From contig SYIL01000004.1 in NCBI GenBank assembly GCA_005798825.1, forward strand, positions 62,001-126,000: 64,000 nucleotides of DNA, read 5' to 3'. Shown here piece by piece: positions 13,731-41,152 of this stretch. Each line of letters starts with the position of its first letter. Position 1 is the stretch's first letter. This stretch comes from Bacteroidota bacterium. Its GTDB lineage: Bacteria; Bacteroidota; Bacteroidia; NS11-12g; UBA955. The notes beneath the pieces are model-generated. The model saw only the letters and a list, made by a program, of their open reading frames with translations, did no database searches and was not told where the DNA came from. A program made the position numbers and the translations under genes.

Positions 13731-13738
13731 TACCTTTG
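13731..13738 (+). promoter_or_regulatory. TAnnTTTG -7 element (TACCTTTG) of rocD, nearly leaderless
   Basis: This is a perfect -7 match with only 5 nt between it and the ATG at 13744, so transcription should start at or next to the start codon. I see no clear -33 TTG. Confidence 0.65.
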
Positions 13739-14989: not shown

Positions 14990-14997
14990 TATTTTTG
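14990..14997 (+). promoter_or_regulatory. TAnnTTTG -7 element (TATTTTTG) of tRNA-Leu
   Basis: The consensus match ends 7 nt before the 5' end of tRNA-Leu (15005), the expected distance for tRNA transcription. It should also drive the lipoprotein gene directly behind the tRNA. Confidence 0.55.
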
Positions 14998-15004
14998 CGA
15001 ATTC

Positions 15005-15090
15005 GCTCGGGTGGCGGAATAGGTAGACGCGCAGGACTTAAAATCCTGTTTTCAGCAATGAAAGTACGGGTTCGATTCCCGTCCCGAGCA
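15005..15090 (+). tRNA. tRNA-Leu (anticodon TAA)
   Basis: The 86-nt cloverleaf has acceptor stem GCTCGGG/CCCGAGC, discriminator A, anticodon stem CAGGA/TCCTG with loop CTTAAAA (anticodon TAA, reading UUA), a long class II variable arm typical of leucine, and T arm GGGTTCGATTCCC. The 3' CCA is not encoded: CAA follows. A protein-coding gene begins 3 nt after the discriminator base. Confidence 0.97.
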
Positions 15091-15093
15091 CAA

Positions 15094-16107
15094 ATGAAGA
15101 AGATTGGAATATCAATCATTCTGTTGCTTGTTTTTTCTTGCCATTCACCCCAAGATTCGGGGAGATTTATAAGTGAAACAGATACCACATATTCTGCAGA
15201 TGTTCGCAGTATTTCTGCCAAAATAAATTCACAACCCCAAGACCCTGAATTGTTTTATCGAAGGGGAAACACATTTTATTTTGAAGGCAAGTTTCAGGAT
15301 GCAGAGATTGATTTTTACCATGCCATCGAACTTAATCCCAAGCAAGCGCTGTATCACCTAAAAATCGCAGAATGCTTTATTTCGATGGATTCTGCAGATT
15401 CCAAAAAAACCCTCTACCATTTGCTAAAAGCCCTGGAAATAAAACCTGATTTCACAGAAGCTAAATCACTGCTGGCCAAATTTTACCTGGCCCGTCAACA
15501 ATATAAGGAGTCAATGATTCTTTACGAGGAACTCTGTGGTATTTTAGAGTACCAAGACAACGCTTTTGTAATGATGTCTTTGGCGTATAAAGAACAAAAA
15601 GATTCGATGGCAGCTGAAGCCATTATTGATAAGGCACTGGCAATAAATCCAGAAAATTTTGATGCGGTTATGCAAAAGACGCTTTTTCTAATTGCCAAAA
15701 ACAAATTGTCTTTGGCAATGCAGTGGGCTCAGAAAGCCGTGCGCATGAATGAGTATAGTGACGAGGCAAATTACACATTGGGGCTTGTTTTTCAAAAACA
15801 AAATCGATTTGCTGATGCATTGTCAAATTATTTGCGTGTACTCAAAATAAATCCGAATTTTATTCTGGCGTATTACAATTCGGCCGTTATTGAATCATCT
15901 TTTGAAAATTTTTTAGTGGGTATTGAATGGTGTGATAAAATGCTTGTTCTGGATCCAAATTATGCCAACGCAATGGCGGTAAAAGGATATTGTTATGAAA
16001 AGTTGGGCAATAAGAAAGAGGCGCTCGTCTTTTACAAGCAGGCCATTGCAATTGATTCGAATTTGATTCTAGCGCGAGAAGGATTGAATGCCATCAAAGA
16101 ACATTAG
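15094..16107 (+). CDS. TPR-repeat lipoprotein directly behind tRNA-Leu
   Basis: This 337-residue lipoprotein starts MKKIGISIILLLVFSCHSPQ, with the lipobox at about residues 13-16. About seven tetratricopeptide repeats follow from residue 45 (for example ELFYRRGNTFYFEGKFQDAE, and PNYANAMAVKGYCYEKLGNK near the end). It probably scaffolds protein complexes in the periplasm. The ATG at 15094 is chosen because upstream in-frame codons lie inside the tRNA and because the signal peptide must be N-terminal. Only 3 nt (CAA) separate it from the mature tRNA end, so there is no room for a ribosome-binding site. Confidence 0.85.
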   Translation: MKKIGISIILLLVFSCHSPQDSGRFISETDTTYSADVRSISAKINSQPQDPELFYRRGNTFYFEGKFQDAEIDFYHAIELNPKQALYHLKIAECFISMDSADSKKTLYHLLKALEIKPDFTEAKSLLAKFYLARQQYKESMILYEELCGILEYQDNAFVMMSLAYKEQKDSMAAEAIIDKALAINPENFDAVMQKTLFLIAKNKLSLAMQWAQKAVRMNEYSDEANYTLGLVFQKQNRFADALSNYLRVLKINPNFILAYYNSAVIESSFENFLVGIEWCDKMLVLDPNYANAMAVKGYCYEKLGNKKEALVFYKQAIAIDSNLILAREGLNAIKEH

Positions 16108-16562
16108 TGTTTTTTAAAGACAATTTTCGAGTACATATAATCTGTAGTCCCTCCAAAATTATAGTAATATTTTCGACGAAGAATAATTTGTTCACCTGTC
16201 ATGGATGATATGTCCCAGAGGAAGCCGAACATAGTCACCTTTGAATCATTTGCGTCATTCATAGACCAAGATTGCTTCTGAGTTGGCAAATCGGAGGGAT
16301 TACATTTGGTATTAGTGTTTATTTCCAATTGATTGGTTGATATGAAAGTGTATACATCATCTTTCATACAAGGCTCAATATTGTCATATTTATCTTGAAA
16401 AGAACTGTCTATCCATGAGCTTAATTCCCAACCGTGCAACATAAAGACTTCTTGTTTTGTTTTTCCACTGATATCAATGGCACCCTTATTGGAAGATAAA
16501 GAATCACAAGAACTGGCTAATAATAGTGTCAAAGTAGAGAGCAGGATCAGATTTTTTTTCAT
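16104..16562 (-). CDS. Lipocalin-like lipoprotein
   Basis: The protein has 152 residues with signal peptide and lipobox LASSC (residues 15-19). The rest reads like the small lipocalin-like barrels common in Bacteroidota: an early KQEVFMLHGWELSSWID, an acidic Cys-containing loop EPCMKDD followed by YTFISTNQLEIN, then SWSM and later strands ending YMYSKIVFKKH. It is convergent with the TPR lipoprotein and overlaps its last 4 bp. A TATATTTG promoter lies at 16574-16581. The ligand is unknown. Confidence 0.6.
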   Translation of the reverse strand: MKKNLILLSTLTLLLASSCDSLSSNKGAIDISGKTKQEVFMLHGWELSSWIDSSFQDKYDNIEPCMKDDVYTFISTNQLEINTNTKCNPSDLPTQKQSWSMNDANDSKVTMFGFLWDISSMTGEQIILRRKYYYNFGGTTDYMYSKIVFKKH

Positions 16563-16692: not shown

Positions 16693-16700
16693 TACCTTTG
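16693..16700 (+). promoter_or_regulatory. TAnnTTTG -7 element (TACCTTTG) of the S8 peptidase gene, nearly leaderless
   Basis: The match lies 4 nt upstream of the ATG at 16705. It decides the start: the open frame extends upstream to 16618, but those codons precede the promoter. Confidence 0.65.
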
Positions 16701-23887: not shown

Positions 23888-23895
23888 TATATTTG
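23888..23895 (+). promoter_or_regulatory. TAnnTTTG -7 element (TATATTTG) of the TonB receptor gene, nearly leaderless
   Basis: The match ends 5 nt before the ATG at 23901. The in-frame GTG at 23895 shares the last G of the promoter, so the ATG is preferred. Confidence 0.65.
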
Positions 23896-41144: not shown

Positions 41145-41152
41145 TATTTTTG
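41145..41152 (+). promoter_or_regulatory. TAnnTTTG -7 element (TATTTTTG) of the six-gene operon, nearly leaderless
   Basis: This is a perfect match with 4 nt (AACT) before the ATG at 41157. It is the only promoter-like site I find for the operon 41157-48840. Confidence 0.65.

Follow-up and report, generated by a model that had tools for sequence, protein, structure and literature searches.

The window, that is, the whole stretch of 64,000 nucleotides analysed here, derives from a Bacteroidota bacterium and contains a tRNA-Leu(UAA) gene followed almost immediately by a TPR lipoprotein gene (Table 1). ARAGORN called the tRNA at 15005-15091 with the anticodon TAA, in agreement with the Rfam match (RF00005, 15005-15090, 63.6 bits against a cut-off of 29), and the letters across the junction were CCCGAGC, A at 15090, CAA, and ATG at 15094-15096. 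The original prediction had placed the tRNA 3 nt before the lipoprotein start codon, with the discriminator base at 15090 and the ATG at 15094, and had described the tRNA as lacking an encoded CCA; the former was borne out by the sequence, ARAGORN and Rfam, and the latter by the sequence. Of the 20 tRNAs examined in the genome of the window, only one was tRNA-Leu(UAA). The lipoprotein reading frame started with the N-terminus MKKIGISIILLLVFSC, a lipoprotein signal, and contained TPR repeats (Pfam, TPR_1, 5.8e-25). Beyond these repeats there was no hint of function; none of the NCBIfam matches listed (25 models) reached its cut-off. The dN/dS values of the gene were 0.02-0.13 in five pairs of relatives, with dS saturated in one pair, and by this measure the gene is under purifying selection. 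The lipoprotein gene and an opposite-strand gene (16104-16562) overlapped at their ends by 4 bases (16104-16107), so that the mRNA would carry one gene after cleavage.

Table 1. Features at the tRNA-lipoprotein junction (feature, position, strand, basis)
Putative -7 promoter box TATTTTTG (consensus TAnnTTTG)	14990..14997	+	sequence; ends 7 bases 5' of tRNA
tRNA-Leu(UAA), CCA not encoded, discriminator A15090	15005..15090	+	sequence, ARAGORN, Rfam
CAA, the entire spacer between tRNA and start codon; predicted mRNA 5' end	15091..15093	+	sequence
TPR lipoprotein gene, 337 codons	15094..16107	+	ORF, Pfam
Possible hairpin directly 3' of AUG (hint only)	15098..15122	+	folding z-score

A protein search of 97 related genomes, combined with inspection of the loci, repeatedly found the same tRNA upstream of the lipoprotein gene. 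When the junction was searched for as a pattern (tRNA 3' end, 0-6 bases, ATG), it was detected in 33 of the 70 genomes and 4 of the 14 genera of the family, while the reversed pattern, used as the control, gave no match in these 70 genomes. The junction was found in 14 of 15 genomes of the genus of the window (g1), 2 of 2 of g4, 14 of 14 of g5 and 3 of 3 of g10, and in none of the 36 genomes of the remaining ten genera. The single exception among the 34 genomes of the four junction genera was G005 of g1, which held a gene fragment at a contig start. Conservation of the junction in relatives, which the original prediction had proposed to look for, was thus confirmed. The ATG opened a lipoprotein frame with a signal sequence at all 33 loci, two of which had a short frame (G029, at a contig end; G058, with internal stops), and six of the junction genes were present in named public records (L053-L058), all from metagenome-assembled Bacteroidota. 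Beyond the family, a looser tRNA-Leu pattern matched five of 390 genomes of the class, a count of matches that gives no rate, and the frame that followed had at most 31 codons in all five. A chance ATG behind the tRNA was rejected on the conservation in the family and this survey of the class, and the junction, as judged from these comparisons, is not a product of chance. A start codon inside the tRNA was also rejected; translation from such a codon is improbable, since it was only in the genus with the leader of 3 bases that an open frame ran through the tRNA.

Of the 19 junction loci of g1, g4 and g10, 15 had an exact TAnnTTTG box 7 bases upstream of the tRNA; the four without an exact box were one of g1 and all three of g10. 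In g5, an exact box was located 10-15 bases upstream of the tRNA at 13 of the 14 loci. The box at 14990-14997 presumably drives transcription of the entire tRNA-lipoprotein unit. Transcripts of F. johnsoniae begin 4-5 bases downstream of this box, as stated in part of the source (PMC6847099); the tRNA would then have a 5' leader of 2-3 bases. No TAnnTTTG box was found within 60 bases upstream of either in-frame ATG (15058 and 15094), which agreed with the earlier claim that the lipoprotein gene has no second promoter before it, and a promoter of the usual type inside the tRNA was rejected on this ground. The missing ribosome-binding site, also put forward as an argument, was given no weight: a Shine-Dalgarno-like 5-mer was present in just 3 of 334 ORFs of this genome, and the argument was dropped because such sites are absent nearly everywhere in this genome.

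The best explanation of this arrangement, and one that we consider likely, is that tRNA maturation makes the 5' end of the lipoprotein mRNA, which would be translated as a leaderless message. The tRNA-Leu(UAA) and the lipoprotein gene would be co-transcribed from the promoter at 14990-14997, the tRNA would fold within the RNA, and its 3' end would be cut between A15090 and the AUG, with RNase Z as the most likely enzyme. This cleavage would yield a tRNA that receives CCA afterwards and, at the same time, a 5'-monophosphate mRNA starting at most 3 bases before the AUG, with CAAAUG as its beginning if the cut falls behind the discriminator. Cleavage by RNase Z leaves a 5' phosphate on the downstream product. 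The ribosomes of this lineage would translate such leaderless mRNAs routinely. RNase Z was encoded in this genome (G000:C9:825-1718; TIGR02651, 299.8 bits; cut-off, 292.95), so that both substrate features, a tRNA without encoded CCA and an RNase Z gene in the same genome, were present here.

The leader between the discriminator and the ATG varied in sequence and hardly in length. Nine sequences were found in the 33 junction genomes, namely CAA in 14, CC in 10, CAAA and CCAA in two each, and CTAA, CTAC, CCAC, CA and CG in one each, all of 2-4 bases though 0-6 had been allowed (3 bases in 14 genomes, 2 in 12 and 4 in 7). A Kozak-like A at -3 was not conserved across these leaders. On a tree of 31 of the 33 junction proteins, from which G029 (gene ending at the contig end) and G058 (internal stops) were left out, as they were from the folding test below, the length changed at least five times and the sequence at least eight times, always within 2-4 bases. 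This fixed spacing with a varying sequence fits a need for closeness to the 5' end rather than for a sequence element. A second tree of 61 proteins, consisting of 55 proteins of the family and six from the 38 f2 genomes searched, required one change for the presence of the junction; both trees were built by a quick method with SH-aLRT as the only support measure, and long branches were flagged by the program. The single gain, together with the CAA leader shared by all 14 junction genomes of g1, would also be expected from compaction without function, in which an ancestral deletion removed a terminator and a promoter and left the gene dependent on the tRNA promoter, with a short spacing that was inherited rather than selected. 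The repeated changes in leader length, never above 4 bases, and the purifying selection on the lipoprotein gene argue against this explanation, and we regard it as rather unlikely. It is compatible with the cut itself and denies only a coupling of purpose.

A survey of tRNA 3' ends covered 107 tRNAs of four genomes (G000, G008, G039 and G041); one 33-bit tRNA match without an ARAGORN call (L023) and three of the 33 tRNA matches of G041, not given as loci, were dropped from this survey. CCA was encoded in 25 of the tRNAs and not in 82, and the base after the discriminator was C in 106 of the 107. This C may be a remnant or a processing signal, and a cut one base later, behind the C, would also be possible. 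For S. coelicolor, a portion of PMC4681348 places the cut between the two Cs in most of the tRNAs that encode CCA. Thirteen of the 33 leaders began with CC; in the ten genomes with the leader CC, the DNA reads A-CC-ATG, and the CCA of the tRNA and the AUG share one A. RNase Z cuts trailers starting with CC or CCA poorly, and the enzymes tested cut CCA precursors behind the CCA, as described in part of PMC7479834. A CC leader with a cut behind CCA would have its start codon split, and the sister species with CC-ATG thus speak against a plain RNase Z cut as read from their sequences. Either the RNase Z of this lineage would cut at the discriminator anyway, or the tRNA and the mRNA would be alternative products.

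The latter option forms a rival explanation, in which normal maturation, whether by 3' exonucleases or by cleavage at the start codon or beyond it, would destroy the message and the lipoprotein would be made only from unmatured transcripts. It gains from the CC leaders, which let the mature CCA end reach into the start codon in 10 of the 33 genomes, from the behaviour of the RNase Z enzymes described above, and from the tRNAs with encoded CCA, given which two processing routes may exist. However, the ribosome holds single-stranded RNA just before the AUG, and in an unmatured transcript the acceptor stem of the attached tRNA would end there, 2-4 bases before the AUG. As the leader was other than CC in 23 of the 33 genomes as well, we consider this explanation improbable.

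Promoter spacing was also counted at other genes of the lineage. Mechanical calling across 464 kb of this genome (the window plus twenty further stretches) gave 334 ORFs, 94 of which had an exact TAnnTTTG box no more than 52 bases from the first ATG. The box was separated from the ATG by 4-7 bases in 34 of these 94 ORFs (4 bases in 12, 5 in 12, 6 in 4 and 7 in 6) and 0-3 bases in none, while a box at 4-7 bases was found for only 2 of 2564 internal ATGs taken as the control. In relatives, sampled on a smaller scale, this spacing was found for 3 of 15 (G041), 8 of 20 (G020), 3 of 14 (G024) and 2 of 8 (G063) box-bearing ORFs. As a prediction from spacing, these results suggested that many mRNAs of this lineage are leaderless, in contrast to what has been reported for cultured Bacteroidota. 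In partial accounts of RNA-seq studies of Bacteroidota, a 5' UTR under 10 nt was given for 3.7% (PMC7366714) and leaderless mRNAs for 5.5% (PMC9723704), and 87% of the leaders of F. johnsoniae exceeded 10 nt (PMC6847099). This rarity in Bacteroidota studied by RNA-seq counts against a leaderless lipoprotein mRNA. In the sections of a review concerned (PMC9031893), leaderless initiation is tabulated as enhanced by a 5' phosphate and inhibited by a 5' UTR, and structure around the start codon is described as hindering it. The folding z-score of codons 1-11 of the lipoprotein gene was -2.90 in this genome, -2.46 to -3.28 in 12 of 14 genes of g1, and -2.63 to -2.90 in 4 of 13 genes of g5; of the 31 genes tested, most of the remaining 15 lacked the signal, and five downstream windows averaged -0.07 to -0.34. 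Because codons 1-11 were chosen with the data already in view and the genes share ancestry, these values give only a hint of a hairpin directly 3' of the AUG, which, if present, may count against leaderless initiation.

The neighbouring branch of the family provided a comparison at the lipoprotein gene itself. The tRNA and the gene were adjacent in all seven genomes of g7 and in the single genome of g8, at a distance of roughly 65-140 bases, and these intervals contained a promoter box before the gene and, in several cases, a terminator-like hairpin. No tRNA was found upstream of the gene in any of the 16 f2 genomes, out of 38, for which upstream regions were fetched. In all seven genomes of the sister genus g7, an exact TAnnTTTG box ended 4 bases before the ATG; transcription should thus start at about the A of the ATG, and the mRNA looks leaderless by promoter placement. 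Among the 25 orthologues without the junction, an exact box was located 4 or 5 bases before an early in-frame ATG in 10, including these seven, and in the other 15 the box was at 3, 6 or 7 bases (5 of 15), mismatched, farther off, or absent. It seems from these arrangements that the lipoprotein gene needs an mRNA starting at the AUG, obtained through a promoter in g7 and most likely through tRNA 3' cleavage in the four junction genera. The promoter of g7 right before the ATG, and the possibility of an unusual sigma factor, might also favour a promoter inside the tRNA gene, unlike the main consensus, that starts a short mRNA right before the AUG next to a tRNA end of no consequence, but with no TAnnTTTG box in the 60 bases before the ATG and a tRNA sequence that is constrained by the function of the tRNA and nearly the same in all junction genera, this is very improbable. 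The original claim that tRNA 3' processing creates the mRNA 5' end was therefore upheld in part: the spacing of 2-4 bases, the lack of an internal promoter, the leaderless-looking orthologue of g7 and the RNase Z gene agreed with it, while the CC-ATG genomes did not agree with the plain RNase Z cut that it had assumed. Control of the lipoprotein by the supply of tRNA would be a further step beyond this claim.

A second tRNA-Leu gene showed a similar arrangement. Behind tRNA-Leu(CAA), which encodes CCA, a conserved hydrolase-like gene had its GTG start 4-5 bases after the CCA, or 7-8 bases from the discriminator, in 15 of 15 genomes of the genus (L022:1501-2432, G000:C34; L203-L217), and the distance from the discriminator was 15 bases in g10 (G039). 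In the survey of four genomes, a coding sequence of at least 100 codons began within 10 bases of 6 of the 107 tRNAs, all of them tRNA-Leu(UAA) or tRNA-Leu(CAA). Looser recurring pairs were tRNA-Gln, 55-64 bases before a gene whose product we take from its N-terminus to be ribose-phosphate pyrophosphokinase, tRNA-Leu(UAG), 40-71 bases before a presumed trigger factor gene, and tRNA-Thr, 31-37 bases before a presumed EF-Tu gene, both likewise assumed from the N-termini. A speculative extension, which we put forward tentatively, is that these bacteria have a small tRNA-punctuation system, in which the tRNA-Leu genes mark the cuts that release leaderless 5'-monophosphate mRNAs, for the lipoprotein behind the UAA tRNA and the hydrolase behind the CAA tRNA. 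With a CC leader, each transcript would then give either a CCA-ended tRNA or an mRNA, and the choice of cut would tie lipoprotein output to tRNA maturation.

The arrangement is best read, unproven as this is, as a bacterial form of the tRNA punctuation that Ojala et al. reportedly described in animal mitochondria in 1981. In both, a tRNA lies within a few bases of a coding sequence (2-4 bases in all 33 junction genomes), and excision of the tRNA would define an mRNA 5' end with little or no leader, as predicted here. Punctuation is a genome-wide rule in mitochondria, where most coding sequences are bordered by tRNAs, whereas one or two tight junctions were found per genome examined here, the junction unit has its own promoter box, and other genes seem to obtain leaderless mRNAs from promoters. 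The tRNA-mRNA operons secG-leuU and thrT-tufB of E. coli combine a tRNA and a protein gene in one transcript that is separated by tRNA processing, as is predicted here. At the present junction, in contrast, the tRNA lies upstream, and the 3 bases between it and the start codon are too few for a separate leader; at the tRNA-Thr of this family, unlike the tight junction, the gap to the EF-Tu-like gene is the 31-37 bases given above. Promoter-made leaderless mRNAs, as covered in part of the review (PMC9031893), also have the AUG at or near the 5' end and no Shine-Dalgarno sequence, whereas here an endonuclease would produce the 5' end, which would bear a monophosphate. In archaea and plants, RNase Z releases RNA located behind a tRNA, for instance Tko-sR44 behind tRNA-Arg, as stated in part of PMC4247193; there, the 3' cut of the tRNA frees the RNA that immediately follows, as is proposed here, but the product is a small non-coding RNA rather than an mRNA. 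No bacterial case of an mRNA 5' end made by tRNA maturation was found in the open-access papers searched. If the cut is real, a bacterium would make an mRNA 5' end by tRNA maturation, as known from mitochondria, and its ribosomes would start on a monophosphate end left by processing instead of an end set by a promoter. An envelope protein would then be coupled to the making of a single-copy tRNA, and the junction would offer a natural test of the requirements of leaderless initiation.

Some further features were observed in the window and at the start of the gene. A TAnnTTTG box ended 4-5 bases before the ATG in 7 of the 43 ORFs of the window, for example at 13731-13738, 16693-16700, 23888-23895 and 41145-41152, and leaderless mRNAs would accordingly be expected in numbers that are unusual for Bacteroidota. 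The silent sites of codons 2-10 of the lipoprotein gene (15094-15123) were unusually conserved in the genus, and the Lys codons 2 and 3 were AAG in 26 of 26 cases, although AAA is the commoner Lys codon. A link between the tRNA and the gene through UUA codons was also considered; TTA accounted for 2 of the 37 Leu codons of the lipoprotein gene, compared with 323 of 1597 in the long ORFs of the window.
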